DNA of 64,000 bases, from NCBI GenBank assembly GCA_001636495.1, contig KV440964.1, forward strand, positions 4,046,666 to 4,110,665, written 5' to 3'. Origin of the DNA: Sutcliffiella horikoshii (GTDB taxonomy: Bacteria > Bacillota > Bacilli > Bacillales > Bacillaceae_I). Below the pieces are notes generated by a model. The model ran no database searches. It had not been told where the DNA came from and was given only the letters and a program-made list of their open reading frames with translations. Made by a program: the position numbers and the translations under genes. Shown here piece by piece: positions 37,128 through 47,668 of the stretch (position 1 is its first letter; every line of letters starts with the position of its first letter).

Positions 37128-38213
37128 TTATTCGTACCACTTATGCCACATTTTCTTATTGTTTCCTCTTACAAACGTATCCACTCGGTTTGGTCCCCAT
37201 GAAACGGCAGCAGGATGGGATTGCACGCCGCCTCTCGGTGCACCAAGGTTGCCCCATTGGCTCCAGCGTTGACCGTTCCAATATTTTTGCCACAAGCGGT
37301 TGTCGTCTCCTTTTACAAAGACGTCGATCCGGTTTGGTGCCCACGAGGCTGCTGCTGGCGCTCCTTCAAAACCACCACGCGGGGTACCAAGATCTTCCCA
37401 CCGGCTCCAGCTCCCTCCGTCCCACCATTTGTGCCACAAGCGCTCGTTCAGGCCGCGCACGAAACAGTCGATTCTGTTCGGACCCCATGATACCGCACCA
37501 GGTGAACCGGTGAGTCCTCCACGCGGAGAACCCAGATTCTCCCATTGACTCCAACGCGATCCGTCCCACCATTTATGCCACATGTTATTGTCCTGCCCCT
37601 GTACAAAACAGTCCAATCGATTGACAGACCAGGAAGCGACAGAAGGTGACCCCTTAAACCCGCCGCGCGGGGACCCGAGATCCTCCCACTGACTCCAACG
37701 CTGTCCATCCCACCATTTATGCCACATGCCATCATTGGCGCCGCGAGCGAACGTATCGATACGATTCTGACCCCATGATACCGCTGCTGGCGAGCTTCTC
37801 AATCCGCCACGTGGCGCTCCGAGATCATTCCAACGGCTCCATCGTCTGCCATTCCAAAACTTCTGCCACATCCGGTTGTCTTCCCCGCGTACGAACGTAT
37901 CCAGACGATTGGACTGCCAGGAAGCGACCGCCGGAGCACCCTTCATTCCAAGTAAAGGCGACCCAAGATCCTCCCATTCCCGCCAGCTTGCCCTCATCTC
38001 ATTTTCATCGGTTCGATAATATGGGAATGGACGTGGTCGAGGATAATAGTATGGATAAAAATAAGGCGCCGGAGCTGGGTAATATGGATAATAATAAGGA
38101 TAATATGGACGTGGTCTCGGTCGCGGATATACATAGATCAGCCGCTCATCAGTAGGCATTTGTCGATAAGCAAATGGATTCTGATTCTGCCCGAAATTCT
38201 GATGTGAATACAT
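37128..38213 (-). CDS. Tyr/Pro-rich protein with six PLL-type propeller (lectin-like) repeats
   Basis: A 361-residue protein. Residues about 25-70 are Pro/Tyr/Arg-rich (RPRPRPYYPYYYPYYPAPAP). Then six repeats of about 48 residues, each with W-x-DLG-x-PRGG, SPAAVSW, NRIDTFVRG, and MWHKWWDG. This is the DUF346/PLL-like pattern of six- or seven-bladed fucose-lectin-type propellers. No signal peptide. Start ATG 38213 is chosen with GGGGAGG 8 nt upstream; the frame is open further but lacks a second site. A candidate sigma-K promoter upstream, and the Tyr/Pro-rich tail, fit a spore-coat or crust role; this is inferred. Confidence 0.82.
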   Translation of the reverse strand: MYSHQNFGQNQNPFAYRQMPTDERLIYVYPRPRPRPYYPYYYPYYPAPAPYFYPYYYPRPRPFPYYRTDENEMRASWREWEDLGSPLLGMKGAPAVASWQSNRLDTFVRGEDNRMWQKFWNGRRWSRWNDLGAPRGGLRSSPAAVSWGQNRIDTFARGANDGMWHKWWDGQRWSQWEDLGSPRGGFKGSPSVASWSVNRLDCFVQGQDNNMWHKWWDGSRWSQWENLGSPRGGLTGSPGAVSWGPNRIDCFVRGLNERLWHKWWDGGSWSRWEDLGTPRGGFEGAPAAASWAPNRIDVFVKGDDNRLWQKYWNGQRWSQWGNLGAPRGGVQSHPAAVSWGPNRVDTFVRGNNKKMWHKWYE

Positions 38214-38246
38214 AAAAAAACCTCCCCTAACTAGACTTCTGCCTAA

Positions 38247-38276
38247 TAGCCTATGCAAAAGGTTGGTGGGAAGGTG
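38247..38276 (-). promoter_or_regulatory. Candidate sigma-K promoter of the propeller protein gene
   Basis: On the minus strand CACC (-35, mACm) at 38276-38273, 17-bp spacer, then CATAGGCTA matching -10 CATAnnnTA at 38255-38247. It lies 34 bp upstream of the start codon. Confidence 0.5.
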
Positions 38277-38376
38277 CATGTTCTATGTGATTATTCGTAG
38301 CGAAAAACTGAGAGATTTGGTGGATACCCCTACCGGAAGGAGTACAATCTAGGTTTACTGTCCAAACTCTAGTATT

Positions 38377-40693: not shown

Positions 40694-41392
40694 ATGAGGG
40701 TTGGTCTTGTAGACGACAGGTACATAGATTTGGATAAATTGAATGGCATCGTGGCAGCCATACCGAATGTGGAGATCGTCTTCTCCACCCAATCTGCAGA
40801 AGAAGCCTATGAACATATAAAAAAAGAAACGGTCGATCTGCTGATTGCAGACATCGAAATGCCGAATCTCTCTGGCTATGAGCTCGCCGACATCATCCAC
40901 TCGCATGCATTGAATATTTCGGTCATTTTTGTAACCGGAACGAGCGGCTATGCCGTGCACGCATTTGAGCTGAACGTTCACGACTACATTATGAAGCCCT
41001 ACCCAAAGGACAGGCTTGTGAAAAGCATGGAAAGGCTGCTCGAGAAAAATAAGTCTGCGGAAATCGCCGGCCGGCTTTACCTTAAGCAAAAAAACGACAT
41101 CCATATTGTCCAGAAGAAAGATATCGTTTTTATTGAACGATCCGGCCGCTCCACCACCATCTATACAAAAAGTGGCCCCATCAAGACATACCAAACATTG
41201 AATGAGCTCGAAGGAGAACTGCGCGAACGTGACTTCCTCCGCTCCCACCGGTCCTTCATCATTAACATACATCATGTGAAAAACTTCTCCCTCTATGCGA
41301 AGAACTCCTATATCGTTTCGTTTGAGGGCATGGAGGAGCAGGCGATGATTACAAAAGATAAGGTGGACTTTCTGCAAGAGAACTACTTTTAA
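40694..41392 (+). CDS. natR: LytTR-family response regulator, NatR-like
   Basis: A 232-residue response regulator. The N-terminal receiver domain has acidic pair DD (residues 7-8), phospho-acceptor Asp in LLIADIEMPNLSG, Thr in VTGTS and Lys in YIMKPYPKD. The C-terminal LytTR DNA-binding domain has IVFIERSGRSTTIYTKSG and FLRSHRSFIINIHHV. It pairs with the following kinase gene and, by analogy with B. subtilis NatKR, activates natAB. AAGGTGAGG precedes ATG 40694. The direct repeat upstream could serve both the natA and natR promoters. Confidence 0.9.
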   Translation: MRVGLVDDRYIDLDKLNGIVAAIPNVEIVFSTQSAEEAYEHIKKETVDLLIADIEMPNLSGYELADIIHSHALNISVIFVTGTSGYAVHAFELNVHDYIMKPYPKDRLVKSMERLLEKNKSAEIAGRLYLKQKNDIHIVQKKDIVFIERSGRSTTIYTKSGPIKTYQTLNELEGELRERDFLRSHRSFIINIHHVKNFSLYAKNSYIVSFEGMEEQAMITKDKVDFLQENYF

Positions 41393-41408
41393 AAAGGATT
41401 GATTTGCG

Positions 41409-42383
41409 TTGAAGACTTCCTCGATTTTCTATGGCGCGCTCGGGGCGCTCCTGTTTTTACATATGCATGCACTATTAGGCGAGTGGGTTCCGTTTTATGT
41501 GAGCCTGTTTGCTGCTGGTGCACTGGTGTTTTATTTTCATAGAAAAATAGTGGGGGAGATTAAGGGTTTAGGTTGGAAGGTAAATGGTGTGTTGGTAGTT
41601 GCGCAGATACTACTGGTGGCGATTTCTCTAGGAGCTTCGCTGCCGGCTTGGCTTGCAATCGGTCCGCTGGCGGCCTTTGTTGCTGTAGAATATGTACGAT
41701 TGTCGATTGGCCGCCTTCTTACCCGGTTACGGCGGGACCTCGACCAACAGGAAGAGCAACGGGAGCATATCAATGAAACTTTCCGCATCGTTCGCAGCGA
41801 GCGGCATGATTTCCTGAAGCACGTCTCAGCCGTCCATTTCATGCTCGAGGACGGTAAGCCTGGGGAAGCAAAGTTGTACCTAGATGAGCTAGTGGAAAAC
41901 TATGAAGAAACAAACTACTCGATCAAGGGTGAGCGCGGCGTGGTGGCGGCTGTGCTACACCAAATGTATCGTCGCGGAAAAGCCTCTGGTATCAGTATCG
42001 TATATGATCTGGATTTGCCGCTTTCTACATTGCCAATTGGTGACCAGAAGATAGTCGGGCTCATCGGAAACCTGTTGAGCAATGGCATAGACGCGTGTGA
42101 GGAATGGCAGCGAGAGCGTGGCGCCCAGGCAATCCTCACCATGCAATTTTACAAACGAAGCGGGCTGTATATGTTGGTCTGCAAAAATAACGCCCTTCCA
42201 ATCCCGGTTGATGTACTGGATTCGCTGTTCCATTCCTACGGTCACACCACGAAAGGTGGAAAACACGAAGGCTTGGGGACGAAAGTGATAAAAGATATTG
42301 TGGAGGAACACCAGGGCTTCCTGGATTTTGTCCATAAAGATGAGGAATTTACGGTAAAAATCAAAGTCCCTGCGATTAGGTAG
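41409..42383 (+). CDS. natK: Sensor histidine kinase, NatK-like (GHKL/AgrC type)
   Basis: A 324-residue kinase. Residues 1-95 hold about four hydrophobic segments; a coiled-coil/DHp region follows with RSERHDFLKHVSAVHFML, where the RHDFxxH motif contains the phospho-acceptor His of HPK10-like kinases. Then a GHKL ATPase with NLLSNGIDACEEW (N box) and HEGLGTKVIKDIV. The start is TTG 41409, 16 nt after natR, with AAAAAGGA upstream. It forms a two-component pair with NatR. The signal is unknown; in B. subtilis the system governs Na+ extrusion genes. Confidence 0.88.
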   Translation: MKTSSIFYGALGALLFLHMHALLGEWVPFYVSLFAAGALVFYFHRKIVGEIKGLGWKVNGVLVVAQILLVAISLGASLPAWLAIGPLAAFVAVEYVRLSIGRLLTRLRRDLDQQEEQREHINETFRIVRSERHDFLKHVSAVHFMLEDGKPGEAKLYLDELVENYEETNYSIKGERGVVAAVLHQMYRRGKASGISIVYDLDLPLSTLPIGDQKIVGLIGNLLSNGIDACEEWQRERGAQAILTMQFYKRSGLYMLVCKNNALPIPVDVLDSLFHSYGHTTKGGKHEGLGTKVIKDIVEEHQGFLDFVHKDEEFTVKIKVPAIR

Positions 42384-42394
42384 GGACAAAAAAC

Positions 42395-42420
42395 AAAGCT
42401 CCCCCAAAAGAGGAGCTTTT
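42395..42420 (+). terminator. Intrinsic terminator after natRK
   Basis: AAAGCTCC / GGAGCTTT arms, 9-nt loop, followed by TTCC; between convergent natK and the McrC-like gene. Confidence 0.8.
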
Positions 42421-42463
42421 CCATTATATCCATCGTCCAATTCTCCGACTCATCCTCAGCTTA

Positions 42464-44419
42464 CTAAATCCCTTCCTCCGCCGCTTCCATCAGCATCTCC
42501 TCCACGAGACTGCGCAGAGTCTTCTGGAAAACGGTTTGATCCTCGGCCGGAGTCAGCGGAACAAGACTAATGCTCCTTCCGTCTAGTTCATCCACCTCTA
42601 TCCCGCCATGCTTTTCAGGAAACAGGACAAGCACCTGGTGAACGGGGCGATACTTCTGCCAGCGCTTCTTTCCATAGATATACGGAGATCTCACGTTGTC
42701 CGCATAGCTTGTCAGCTGGCGCATTGAGTCTGTCAGGGCATGTTTTTTACGATATTTCATGTCAATCATGATGGTACCGATATAGACATCGCGCAAGAAC
42801 AAATCCAGCCTCACATCGGGGTTGTTATTGGTCCCGGTCGTATAGATTGGCACACCAAACTTTTCCGTCGCTTCTGGATTCCCGGGGATGGTCCCGTCAT
42901 ACGTAATATGCAGGCGCGTTTCCCCAAAAGAAAACTGGATCATGTTGTCCTTTGCAATTGGCTCTACAGTCGAATCATAAAGGGGGCCACCTCGTCTCCC
43001 AAAGAGTCTAGAACCTTGGACCAACCTGTCGCTAACTCGCTCCCCATTGCCTCTCTCTGCCCATCTCCATTCATGAACCAACCTATCACCAAGCCTCACT
43101 GGCCTGACGTCACGAGGCGCATCCGAACTGCCATCCAGACCCAAATTCGCCCCATCTAGACCAGCCCCTTCCAAGCTAGCCTTCCCCAGACCTGCCCCAT
43201 CCAAAATTTGACCAAACTCCTCGACGACCCCGACCACCTGCAGCCAGCCCCAGATTTCATACAGCTGATCCGTCCGCTTCCACTGTTGGCCGAGCCCCGT
43301 ATGTACAGGAAGTTCGTCCCCGTAAAGCGCCTGGTCAATTTGATAGAGCTTGCGGTACCGCACATCTACAAACATCACCTTTGGAACCAAAAGGGCCTTC
43401 CGGTAGGAAACCTCCTGATACCAATGACTTGATTTGACCTGGCTCAGCGCGCCGTTCATGCGCATCGCCTTGCCGCGATATTCCTTCAACTCTTCCACCA
43501 GCCGCCTCTTCCTCTCCAACGGAAGGGAAATGGAGAACGAGTAATCCTTGTTGCTTTTCAACGTCAAGCCCTTAATGGTTCTGTCCATTGTCTCTACAAA
43601 TTGATGCAGCAACCGAATCCACTTTTCCAAAATCGCCTTCAGCATCTGATTTTCCGGCAGATCATAGTTGATTCGTTTTTGCACCGATTTCACAAGGTTC
43701 ATCGTATCCGGGCGCTTCAATCGATGCTGGATGGATACCACATCGACATGGGCAGGCTTTTCAGCAGATTGCATTTGATACTCCTTCGCAACGGAAGACC
43801 TCACCTTCTGAGCAAGATCTGAAACAATGGCGTAAATATCGGTAAAATAATGCTGCAACACTTGGTATTGGCGGAACAGTACAGGGTTGATCCGCAATGC
43901 CTCCAAGCTCTTGGGGCTATGCTGTTTGCGAATGACATCAAGGGCCGCACCCTTTAGCTTCTCCTCGACTTCTTCCCTCATCGTTTCCAGCTGAGCCTCA
44001 AATAGTCTGTTCGAGATGACCTTCACCAAGGTGTAAAACGTCCTTCCATCCGACGTTTCCACACGAAGACTGTAGAGACCTGGTATATATGGATAATAAT
44101 TGTCTGAGGTCGAGTGCTTGTAGAGTGTCACCAGCCCATTGCAACCAAGATAATTCTCCTCATTATCATGATCCACCATCAAACGGCCATCCGCCAGCCC
44201 ATCGAATCCATCCATATAACACCTGGCACCTTCGTCCTCACAGCGGAACCTAAGTTCCAAATTGACATTCTCCCGAAGCATCGTGTAGACATGCATCGCC
44301 TCGTCCCAATCCGACAGATGCTCCACAAAGCTTGCAACCTCCGTATCCTCCCTCGTCCCATTTTGAAAAATATGCGTAAAAACAACAGAAAACGGCTGCG
44401 TGCTACATGGTGTATCCAT
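42464..44419 (-). CDS. McrC-like nuclease: DUF2357 domain plus PD-(D/E)XK
   Basis: A 651-residue protein and third gene of the McrBC-like unit. The N-terminal half (about 1-330) is beta- then helix-rich and fits the DUF2357 domain of McrC homologues. The C-terminus has the PD-(D/E)XK core: Asp539 (VRLDLFL) and Asp553-x-Lys555 (IMIDMKYRKK), followed by the usual QLTSYA segment. A short Gly/Ala/Leu stretch at 409-428 reads as four A-x-L-x-x pentapeptide units, unusual for the family. The start overlaps the AAA+ gene by 17 nt. Predicted role: nucleic-acid cleavage when activated by the McrB-like GTPase. Cleavage target (modified DNA or RNA) unknown. Confidence 0.85.
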   Translation of the reverse strand: MDTPCSTQPFSVVFTHIFQNGTREDTEVASFVEHLSDWDEAMHVYTMLRENVNLELRFRCEDEGARCYMDGFDGLADGRLMVDHDNEENYLGCNGLVTLYKHSTSDNYYPYIPGLYSLRVETSDGRTFYTLVKVISNRLFEAQLETMREEVEEKLKGAALDVIRKQHSPKSLEALRINPVLFRQYQVLQHYFTDIYAIVSDLAQKVRSSVAKEYQMQSAEKPAHVDVVSIQHRLKRPDTMNLVKSVQKRINYDLPENQMLKAILEKWIRLLHQFVETMDRTIKGLTLKSNKDYSFSISLPLERKRRLVEELKEYRGKAMRMNGALSQVKSSHWYQEVSYRKALLVPKVMFVDVRYRKLYQIDQALYGDELPVHTGLGQQWKRTDQLYEIWGWLQVVGVVEEFGQILDGAGLGKASLEGAGLDGANLGLDGSSDAPRDVRPVRLGDRLVHEWRWAERGNGERVSDRLVQGSRLFGRRGGPLYDSTVEPIAKDNMIQFSFGETRLHITYDGTIPGNPEATEKFGVPIYTTGTNNNPDVRLDLFLRDVYIGTIMIDMKYRKKHALTDSMRQLTSYADNVRSPYIYGKKRWQKYRPVHQVLVLFPEKHGGIEVDELDGRSISLVPLTPAEDQTVFQKTLRSLVEEMLMEAAEEGI

Positions 44420-46430
44420 TGTATTTCAGCTCTTTCGCTTTTTGTTTTACGACACTTCTGCTTTCCTTAAACCCAGAAACATGGGAGTAGCGGTCAAACA
44501 ATCGGTTAAGCTGGCTGCCTTCCACGATATCCTTTTCCCGATTATAACGCCCAAGCAAATCCCGGAGCTGGTCCTCAGAACCCCTTACTTTTGTCAGGAT
44601 ACGCTGGACCATCTGCAGGTCAAAGGCATCTTCCCGTAAAATATAGTTCTGCACAGGGAGATTCCCCAAGTACAGGTCAATCTGCTTCACAATACGCGGG
44701 CCGACTCCCACCTGCTTGTTCACATCTTGCATCAGCTGATGAATTTCCCATAACAGCGAAAGCTCATCATCATGGAGATTCAGGCTGCGGTTTTTATATT
44801 GAAACGACTCAAACGTGTCATAATCGACCTCATCCGCTCGAGCCACCATTCCTTTTTTCTTTTCCGGAAGCTGCTTCATTTGGGCAAACGGCATCACATC
44901 AAGGGACAATACATTGGCACGGTCCAATACTTTATCGGAAAAATGATAGGTGGACTCATCCATGTTGACTGTTCCGACAAATAGGACGTTTTCACGGATG
45001 ACAATGGTCGGTGGGTACTGGGCGGAATTATACAGCCTGCTCTCAAGGTCGTCATTATACAACCTCAGCACTCGTTTTCCATGATCCATTTCCAAAATCG
45101 AAAGGAATTGGGAAAAATAATGCTCTACCCTCGCCAGGTTCATTTCGTCAAAACAGATGATATAAAGCTTATCCTTATCATCCTCCGCCTTACGCAACGC
45201 ATTGATCAGACCGGAATCGCCAGGACGGTACACCATGTTCAATGTATCTGCATATCCAATCAAGTCTGAATCTGATGTCCAAGACGGACTTACCGGAATA
45301 ACCGTCAACTGCTCCCCTTTTAGACCAAGAGACTGGCTGTACAGCTCCACTAACTTCGTTTTCCCTGTTCCGCTCATGCCAGATAAAATCACAAGCGACG
45401 ACGATTTCATCGACGTATGGAAATTGATCAGGTTCTCTTTTCGATAAATAAGTCCCGCATCTTGCGTGTGACTGTACAAAAGCTCGAGGAACTCCAGCTC
45501 CTTTTCATTCACTTCTGGTACGAGGGAAAAGCCTTCTAAGTCCATTCCTGACGGCTTTTCCAAGACCGACACCGCGACCTCCTGCTTACTTTCCAACTGC
45601 GGAGTTACGAGGCTCTCTTCAGAACGCCCAGCTGCTTCTGCCGGCTTCTGCCTTTCCTCCATCTCCGCCGTCACGGAAACCGGTTCTACCCCCTCCAACA
45701 TTTCCATTAGCTTCTGATAGATTCCAATCGGCACAAATGCCACATTCGGACTCTCATCCGTCAAATAGCATTCGTCCAGCCACTCTTCTTCTAAAACTAT
45801 CCGCTTCAATTCATCACGCAATTCCAGACTGAAGCCACCGTGCGCATATTGATGCTTGTCAAACATCCCGAAAAGAAAGAAGCGCTCATCGTCCCCATTT
45901 TCTTCCCTCCACACAACAATCGGTGGCGTATCATTCGTCTCATGGGAAACCTCCTCCAGGCGTCCGACAAACTTCTTTCCGGCAAGTCTGGCAATGAACT
46001 CAACCTGCTTCAACCCATTCACCTGTTCGCTGAAAATGGGAACCGGGATCAGCTTTAGATCCTTTTCATAGCTCGGAAGCTTCGGCATTACACGCACCTG
46101 AAACATGTTGTACACCTCTTCATGGTTGTAACGAATGCGCTTTTCCACTTTGAAAATCAACAGGCGGTCGGCAAGCCATTCACGCAGTTTTTCTTTCCGG
46201 ATGAATTCCGGTTGCAAGTAGTCATCCTCAAAGCCCCATTTTTCCAGATCCGAGTAGAACCCGGTTACAGCCTTCACATTCGGAAAACTGTCGGCAGGCT
46301 GTGAAATGATGCGCACAAAAAACTGAAGACTATCCTGCTTGTTTATTAAAATCGAGTCCCGGTAGATCAGCTCACTCTGGTCCACGTCCGCCAGTACTCC
46401 AACTAAATCGTTCTCCCAAATTTTGTTCAT
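44403..46430 (-). CDS. McrB-like AAA+ GTPase
   Basis: A 675-residue AAA+ protein. Residues 1-300 have no recognised fold and may be a target-recognition region. The GTPase domain follows: Walker A GMSGTGKTK (351-359), Walker B IICFDEMNLARVEHYFSQFLSILE (Asp428/Glu429), which is strongly McrB-like, and GTVNMDEST near 486-494, followed by SDKVLDRAN, matching the McrB subfamily where this loop replaces NTAD. It likely forms GTP-driven hexamers that translocate on or recognise nucleic acid and activate the McrC partner. Gene order and 17-nt overlap support a complex. Confidence 0.87.
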   Translation of the reverse strand: MNKIWENDLVGVLADVDQSELIYRDSILINKQDSLQFFVRIISQPADSFPNVKAVTGFYSDLEKWGFEDDYLQPEFIRKEKLREWLADRLLIFKVEKRIRYNHEEVYNMFQVRVMPKLPSYEKDLKLIPVPIFSEQVNGLKQVEFIARLAGKKFVGRLEEVSHETNDTPPIVVWREENGDDERFFLFGMFDKHQYAHGGFSLELRDELKRIVLEEEWLDECYLTDESPNVAFVPIGIYQKLMEMLEGVEPVSVTAEMEERQKPAEAAGRSEESLVTPQLESKQEVAVSVLEKPSGMDLEGFSLVPEVNEKELEFLELLYSHTQDAGLIYRKENLINFHTSMKSSSLVILSGMSGTGKTKLVELYSQSLGLKGEQLTVIPVSPSWTSDSDLIGYADTLNMVYRPGDSGLINALRKAEDDKDKLYIICFDEMNLARVEHYFSQFLSILEMDHGKRVLRLYNDDLESRLYNSAQYPPTIVIRENVLFVGTVNMDESTYHFSDKVLDRANVLSLDVMPFAQMKQLPEKKKGMVARADEVDYDTFESFQYKNRSLNLHDDELSLLWEIHQLMQDVNKQVGVGPRIVKQIDLYLGNLPVQNYILREDAFDLQMVQRILTKVRGSEDQLRDLLGRYNREKDIVEGSQLNRLFDRYSHVSGFKESRSVVKQKAKELKYNGYTM

Positions 46431-46437
46431 CTATGTC

Positions 46438-47517
46438 TCAACCTTTCTCAATATAACGTTTCATTGTCGGAAAATCGGTAAATTCTTTAATACTCTTTTG
46501 GGCTGTTCGCTTTATCTTTCGTCTCATTTGTGGTGGAACGAGGTAGGTCATCATCCAGATTTCATCGCAGTTTTCGAGAAGGTTCGTCTCCAGTGCTTCT
46601 GAAACATCCTTCAGCTCCAGCACCCGAAAGGAATGTTTTGCTGAATTTTCTGTCAATTTGTTTTTCGGATCTCCTACTAATAGGACTTGCTTTTTGTCTG
46701 TTGCGGCCGGTTGCTCAGGGTGTTTTTCGTCCATTCTGGTTACTGCCACTTCCTGCTGGTTCTTGAGAAGCATTGCGTTCAGGTGGGAATTTTCCGCTTT
46801 GAGTTTCGCCACTTCCGCTTTCAAGACTTCATTTTCCTCATAGGTCTTCCGGTTGTTCACGACCGTTTCCCTATGCTGGGACCGCTCCATCCCGAGTTCT
46901 TGTTGCAGCTTTTGCTTTTCACTCAACATCGCTTGCTTTTCGTCCTTTACCTGCTGCTTCAGCTGGGAATACTGCTTCTCCCACTCACTGATTTTGGCGC
47001 GAAGATCACGGTTCTTTTCTTCGGACTTATTCCACTTCTTTTCCCATTCGGAGGGCTGGGCTTTTCCCTTCTTGACTTTAGGCTCTTCTGCGACCTTTTT
47101 ATCTTCTCTATCTATCAGACTGCTCAAGTCATCGGCCTTGTATTTTTCCAGCAATGCTTTCTCGAGTTCCCCTGCAAGCTTCTCGAGCTCCTCATCCTCA
47201 CTTGCATACAGTCCGCCGAGGATAAGATGGAGCTCTTTTCCCTCTTCATATAATTCCATCAAGGCATCCAGCGTAATTTCGTCCCCGTTTTCCTCCGGTT
47301 CGTCCGCCTCTTCGTCTGTAATGGTGTAATAGGCCTTAATCATCTTCAGGTTCCGCGGCTTCAACGCCTCTGCAATGACCATTGCCCTCGCCTGTTTGAT
47401 GTTTTCTTGATTGATGTAGCGGAACCCTTTCACCTGGATCGACCAGAAATCGACCAACTCCACAAGCTCCACATCCCCAATCGTACTAAATACCTTTTTC
47501 CACGTTTCTCTGCTCAA
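46438..47517 (-). CDS. Coiled-coil protein, first gene of the McrBC-like unit
   Basis: A 359-residue soluble protein. Residues 1-130 are helical and acidic. About 150-250 form a long coiled coil (EWEKKWNKSEEKNRDLRAKI onward, heptads rich in Glu/Lys/Gln). The C-terminal 90 residues (VLLVGDPKNKL, then DEIWMMTYLVPPQMRRKIKRTAQ) look like a small Rossmann-type alpha/beta domain, similar in outline to DUF2325; that match is tentative. Start TTG 47517 with AGAGGGGG upstream; stop lies 7 nt before the AAA+ gene. Likely an accessory or sensing subunit of the same system. Confidence 0.75.
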   Translation of the reverse strand: MSRETWKKVFSTIGDVELVELVDFWSIQVKGFRYINQENIKQARAMVIAEALKPRNLKMIKAYYTITDEEADEPEENGDEITLDALMELYEEGKELHLILGGLYASEDEELEKLAGELEKALLEKYKADDLSSLIDREDKKVAEEPKVKKGKAQPSEWEKKWNKSEEKNRDLRAKISEWEKQYSQLKQQVKDEKQAMLSEKQKLQQELGMERSQHRETVVNNRKTYEENEVLKAEVAKLKAENSHLNAMLLKNQQEVAVTRMDEKHPEQPAATDKKQVLLVGDPKNKLTENSAKHSFRVLELKDVSEALETNLLENCDEIWMMTYLVPPQMRRKIKRTAQKSIKEFTDFPTMKRYIEKG

Positions 47518-47668
47518 TGTAATGACCCCCTCTTATTTGTTGTTCTTCTCACATTTTCTCTGGTACTCTATTAGGTAAATACACTTTTCATTCTACAGGA
47601 ACACATCTGTTTTTGTAAGGTTATGAAAATTTAAACATAGAACTTTATTCCTAGAGAGGTGAACTGCT

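Follow-up and report, generated by a model that had tools for sequence, protein, structure and literature searches.

The cnuA-cnuB-cnuC trio of Sutcliffiella horikoshii is probably a Type I-B CoCoNuT, a McrBC-type immune module

The three genes cnuA, cnuB and cnuC of Sutcliffiella horikoshii probably constitute a Type I-B CoCoNuT, i.e. a self-contained McrBC-type immune module that was moved horizontally and now resides stably in a single clade of Sutcliffiella. Type I-B CoCoNuTs (CnuA-CnuB-CnuC) were defined by Bell et al. (2024; PMC11090510) and occur mainly in Bacillota. The trio was identified in a stretch of 64,000 nucleotides, hereafter called the window; all coordinates are window positions, and the trio is located wholly on the minus strand. 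The position of the three-gene module (42464-47517), the 7-nt gap between cnuA and cnuB and the 17-nt overlap between cnuB and cnuC, as given by an initial annotation, proved exact to the base when compared with the ORF coordinates. Identity between close congeners amounts to ~74-91% for all three proteins. Their conservation between species indicates that the ORFs are not due to chance, and the trio is real, intact and conserved. The following features were assigned:

42384..47668: whole inserted cassette, flanked by the histidine-kinase and GIY-YIG genes; two congeners lack it at this site
46438..47517, minus strand: cnuA, 359 aa, TTG start, separate coiled-coil protein (ORF, AlphaFold2 model, conservation upstream of cnuB)
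46735..47055, minus strand: single long helix (coiled coil) of CnuA, residues 155-261, 107 residues (AlphaFold2/DSSP)
46441..46698, minus strand: receiver-like alpha/beta C-terminal domain of CnuA, residues 274-359, without conserved phosphoacceptor Asp (fold match)
44403..46430, minus strand: cnuB, 675 aa, McrB-like AAA+ NTPase (ORF, Pfam, PADLOC, McrB relatives, AlphaFold2 and fold search)
45681..46430, minus strand: N-terminal region of CnuB, residues 1-250, predicted target recognition, two beta-rich folded units (AlphaFold2)
45357..45380, minus strand: Walker A motif GMSGTGKT of CnuB, residues 351-358; G351, G354, G356 and K357 invariant
44955..44966, minus strand: NxD(E) motif N489-M-D-E492 of CnuB (GTVN489-M-D491-E); no variation at N489 or D491 among 71 sequences
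44430..44435, minus strand: cnuC ribosome-binding site within cnuB codons K666-E667 (AAAGAG), assigned from codon skew
44403..44419, minus strand: 17-nt overlap of cnuB and cnuC, containing the cnuC start codon (44417-44419)
42464..44419, minus strand: cnuC, 651 aa, McrC-like, DUF2357 and PD-(D/E)xK nuclease (ORF, Pfam, invariant residues)
43583..44080, minus strand: DUF2357 match of CnuC, the McrB-binding/activating part of McrC (Pfam PF09823)
42704..42820, minus strand: PD-(D/E)xK active site of CnuC, P534-D535, D553-x-K555 and Q568...Y572 (conserved residues)

The initial annotation had presented the trio as a new compact variant with a separate coil. This arrangement had already been described as Type I-B CoCoNuT (PMC11090510), and the trio is a further member of this known kind. 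The relation to CoCoNuTs, also proposed at that stage, was confirmed, as gene set, gene order, NxD motif (a class marker, PMC11090510) and separate coil all agree with the published type (PMC11090510). In the trio as in Type I-B, a separate coiled-coil protein begins with a helical domain and ends with one that is REC-like at fold level, the NxD GTPase has no coil, and the partner combines DUF2357 with an intact PD-(D/E)xK nuclease, the three genes belonging to Bacillota. No structural difference was found. As no testable defining feature failed, the trio was filed under Type I-B CoCoNuT. What is added here to the knowledge of this type is the missing Asp in CnuA, the embedded start codon and ribosome-binding site of cnuC, the empty chromosomal site and the carriage by plasmids. 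For Type I-B CoCoNuTs, no bench experiment was found in the open literature.

The trio was also compared with other known systems. It shares with McrBC of E. coli K-12 the AAA+ fold, Walker A/B and a DUF2357-nuclease partner, whereas it differs in having NxD in place of NxxD, in lacking a DUF3578 reader and in its extra coiled-coil subunit. Canonical McrBC (NxxD, DUF3578 reader) was ruled out by the NMD motif and by the absence of MrcB_N from CnuB. The Pseudo-Type I-B CoCoNuT of Bacillus is a close relative of Type I-B (PMC11090510); it was rejected as it is devoid of CnuA, whereas the trio has CnuA at 46438..47517. Type III-B CoCoNuT also has a separate coiled-coil CnuA, but one with no other domain, and it includes CnuH and CnuE genes which are absent here. 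The PADLOC profile PDC-M26A matches CnuB with an E-value of 5.8e-48, PDC-M26 being an uncharacterised candidate label only. A second McrBC system (L031, G000:C1:4198000-4216000) was observed in the same genome ~115 kb from the trio. It encodes an 855-aa McrB with MrcB_N/DUF3578 and an 815-aa McrC. Genes for HNH and PvuRts1I-like SRA endonucleases come after them and one for a NERD-UvrD-type helicase before them, and the whole is a classical type IV restriction island.

The McrBC-like nature of the trio, as initially annotated, is borne out by the AAA_5 match in CnuB (Pfam E-value of 2.7e-7) and DUF2357 in CnuC, and by E. coli McrB being the nearest solved sequences to CnuB. The motifs GMSGTGKT, FDEMNLARVEHYFSQFLS and GTVNMDEST are all present in CnuB as quoted. 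Good AlphaFold2 models of CnuB and CnuA were obtained from inputs of 71 and 72 sequences. The CnuB model (mean pLDDT of 86.3) gave the AAA+ fold, as had been anticipated, and the top structural match of residues 313-521 was E. coli McrB (6ut6_D, Z 17.9, rmsd 2.6, 187 residues). The N-terminal region displays a pLDDT of about 90 over most of residues 1-250. For the N-terminus of Type I-B CnuB, cold-shock (CSD) and often YTH-like domains have been assigned (PMC11090510), and the two beta-rich units of the model are found at the places expected for them. Neither EVE and CSD profiles against this N-terminus nor Pfam on 71 CnuB N-termini together with PDB sequence profiles gave a match or anything consistent. 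In the fold search with full CnuB, the match list was filled by AAA+ proteins and was silent on residues 1-250. The statement that the recognition domain is unrecognised thus holds for sequence profiles, but not for the literature, since the assignment of CSD/YTH-like domains by Bell et al. (2024; PMC11090510) already provides a prediction for this region.

In CnuC, DUF2357 was detected with an E-value of 1.8e-7 (PF09823), and the PDDEXK_7 match was below threshold. Across 72 homologues, P534, D535, K555 and Y572 do not vary, so that the proposal of D553 and K555 as catalytic residues was right; the nuclease is known here from sequence, not from its fold. For the IG-like beta-sandwich that Type I-B is expected to have at the N-terminus of CnuC, no significant match was obtained when the profile was compared with PDB sequences. 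In the CnuC of the window, a hypervariable Gly/Arg-rich stretch at about residues 404-470 (window 43010..43210) separates the helical part from the nuclease. It is present with differing sequences in four genomes (proteins of 638-651 aa), and most other congeners are devoid of it (about 582 aa).

CnuA was modelled with a mean pLDDT of 85.4. The coiled coil was confirmed to be a separate protein, as the 107-residue helix is part of the CnuA model and no comparable helix is seen in that of CnuB. The term 'coiled-coil first subunit' is nevertheless incomplete, since the model also comprises an N-terminal helical bundle (residues 3-140, outside the part that the fold search covered) and the C-terminal alpha/beta domain (residues 276-358 as modelled). 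The top fold match of the latter was the receiver of BaeR (Z 7.3, rmsd 2.6, 83 residues aligned), with which other Rossmann-like folds tie; the domain is thus REC-like at the fold level only. Comparison of a receiver profile with this domain gave a probability of 1.8%, i.e. no support. DUF2325, suggested by eye for the same domain, was rejected with a probability of just 1.7% in profile comparison, and the PYD/CARD-like helical domain expected at the N-terminus of a Type I-B CnuA was not confirmed by sequence profiles.

In 74 of 77 loci, cnuB and cnuC overlap by precisely 17 nt; among the distant canonical McrBC pairs (L026-L030) overlaps varied. Over the start of cnuC, the codon of cnuB reads AAT, TAT or CAT at 72 loci (ATG start) and TTT at two (TTG start), and the next base is always G. 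About 10 nt upstream of the start, the conserved KEL peptide has GAG as its Glu codon (E667) at 72 of 74 loci, as against a GAG share of 33% among Glu codons in the rest of cnuB, and the sequence at the ribosome-binding site reads AAAGAG or AAGGAG. With the sequences being related, a naive product of probabilities is not to be used, but the difference from codon usage in other parts of the same genes is plain. The embedded ribosome-binding site and start codon would couple the translation of cnuC to that of cnuB. No mention of them was found in the CoCoNuT paper (PMC11090510). This signature offers a testable statement on the control of the subunit ratio.

The distribution of the trio was analysed in related genomes. 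The McrB-like gene was found in 13 of 15 congeners, always accompanied by the McrC-like gene (13/13), and the coiled-coil gene was recognised by similarity in 12 of these 13. In S. rhizosphaerae (G005), a diverged coiled-coil gene (23% identical) occupies the same place in the trio. The trio was missing from two congeners, one of which is represented by an 80% complete assembly. In 12 Sutcliffiella-group genomes, window included, it is located at one fixed site beside the same GIY-YIG gene, and the other flank consists in most of them of a LytTR/histidine-kinase pair and an ABC transporter ATPase/permease pair. In the clade of the window, the trio is thus surrounded by housekeeping genes rather than by a defence island. 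The site is empty in S. rhizosphaerae and B. tianshenii, where the GIY-YIG gene comes directly after the kinase gene, with only ~150 and ~25 nt, respectively, in between; both carry the trio elsewhere in the genome. From these empty sites in two trio-bearing congeners, it follows that the cassette was gained (or lost) as one unit of ~5.3 kb. Neither flanking direct repeats nor terminal inverted repeats stood out at the ends of the window cassette. Behind the trio of B. tianshenii (L053, 1-8186), a more distant relative, lie genes in the same orientation for an AAA ATPase, for a UPF1-like SF1 helicase and for two proteins of 544 and 531 aa, which may be a further defence set. One Sutcliffiella genome (L060, G007:C9:14001-34000) contains a distant A-B-C paralogue beside Wadjet JetD-like and Abi_2 genes, with large genes of no assigned identity beyond the JetD-like gene.

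A scan of 84,980 species yielded 79 loci. Of the 74 loci that extend far enough upstream of cnuB, 72 have the A-B-C genes together (a coiled-coil-sized gene upstream of cnuB counted from the locus table, exceptions being L104 and L123), distributed over Bacillales, Lactobacillales and Clostridia. Outside the Sutcliffiella clade, no constant fourth gene was found in the flanks, bar one generic large cluster (median of 283 aa) which was tentatively read as ABC-type ATPases. Among 299 sampled genomes of the order, 21 contain a close CnuB. In a GTPase tree, the copies of Salirhabdus, Metabacillus, Neobacillus, Ureibacillus and Heyndrickxia are nearer to the window than that of S. rhizosphaerae, and the latter falls outside the group joining Sutcliffiella with the Salirhabdus, Metabacillus, Neobacillus and Heyndrickxia copies. 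In the same tree, CnuB from a contig labelled as a Methanobrevibacter MAG (L112) groups with Lactobacillaceae copies; this contig is probably a mis-binned Bacillota sequence.

Complete trios were found on plasmids of Lactococcus, Companilactobacillus and Lactiplantibacillus. On p275A of L. lactis, the trio is located between two ISS1S copies in the same orientation, with a putative abortive infection gene nearby, and a type I restriction R gene is found near the trio on a plasmid of C. futsaii. Plasmid carriage is a way in which defence modules travel, and is no proof of defence. On an L. plantarum plasmid (L220, 217-5612), genes for helicases and nucleotide pyrophosphohydrolases were observed directly upstream of the trio on the same strand. 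For phage carriage of the trio, partial AAA+ matches in two records only were obtained. Elsewhere, most neighbours matched different PADLOC families singly, in a tally that does not distinguish separate proteins, so that an enrichment of defence genes is suggestive only. The initial annotation had held that a core operon shared by all relatives with no defence genes around it would refute its reading. Half of this picture was found, in the single clade of 12 genomes with housekeeping neighbours. It does not hold outside this clade, considering the two congeners without the trio, the two with an empty site, the patchy occurrence in the order and the plasmid trios beside restriction or abortive infection genes.

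Taken together, these analyses suggest that the most likely role of the trio is that of an NTPase-nuclease immune module. As judged from its relatives, CnuB would form an NTP-driven AAA+ ring, probably using GTP, and its N-terminal domains would recognise some feature of nucleic acids that are foreign or altered. CnuC would dock via DUF2357, stimulate hydrolysis by analogy with its relatives and supply the PD-(D/E)xK cut. CnuA may be a scaffold or signalling adaptor that multimerises by its long helix and ties the ring to its end domains, one helical and one receiver-like. The target of CoCoNuTs was predicted to be RNA, possibly DNA too (PMC11090510). An anti-phage effect, the target and the role of CnuA are inferred only. 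A DNA-cutting system akin to E. coli McrBC, in which the coiled coil would be an accessory, is possible but doubtful; it would be compatible with the filing as Type I-B. The intact nuclease, DUF2357 and the McrB-type AAA+ part agree with it, as does the finding that no further nuclease gene recurs near the trio. However, Pfam revealed no MrcB_N/DUF3578 reader in CnuB, whereas the second McrBC of the same genome has it beside the PvuRts1I-like gene, and the published reading of the CoCoNuT family points to RNA-binding domains (PMC11090510). As this second system carries the classical reader, the window module probably reads something else; restriction of modified DNA would already be covered, which fits a different target.

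The strong conservation of all three proteins and the fixed site among housekeeping genes in 12 genomes could also reflect a complex co-opted in this clade for housekeeping or stress response, for instance in RNA quality control, in division or under crowding stress. PcdA of S. aureus, a McrB-family protein, has turned into a division factor (PMC10602043), and Pseudo-Type I-B systems were proposed to act in overcrowding stress (PMC11090510). This explanation is considered unlikely, as NTPase and nuclease residues of the trio are fully intact, unlike PcdA with its degraded Walker A and no McrC partner (PMC10602043), and as the trio is absent from two congeners and patchy in the order, and its relatives travel on plasmids. 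A combined version, in which the pseudo-receiver and helical ends of CnuA form a phosphorylation-independent sensing or signalling platform for a new cue and the modules of the S. horikoshii clade were domesticated for a non-defence RNA or stress role, is regarded as rather improbable. Phosphorylation was proposed for the CoCoNuT family (PMC11090510), and a histidine kinase and response regulator (40694..42383) are immediate neighbours of the trio; together with the receiver-like fold at the end of CnuA, this would be consistent with a subunit switched by the adjacent pair. Yet only 3 of 64 homologues have Asp at the phosphoacceptor position (residue 324, where the third strand ends, placed by secondary structure and not by residue-level structural alignment), nor is the acidic pair conserved. 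The kinase pair also has the opposite orientation, convergent to cnuC. As it is present at the empty sites too, where the trio is absent, a link between the trio and the two-component system was rejected, and the phosphorylation-switched CnuA is considered very improbable. The lack of a conserved phosphoacceptor Asp speaks against this published regulatory idea.

The trio is well suited for experiments, as this copy is complete, compact (5.1 kb), derived from a Bacillus relative and has natural empty sites in congeners, and the second McrBC of the same genome, apparently differing in specificity, provides an internal contrast. Its transfer to B. subtilis is therefore straightforward. Elsewhere in the window (37128..38279), a 383-aa protein was observed with repeated SWGxNRIDxFVRGxDNxxWHKWWDGxxWSxW units and a Tyr/Pro-rich N-terminus, the units resembling tandem lectin- or beta-propeller-like repeats.
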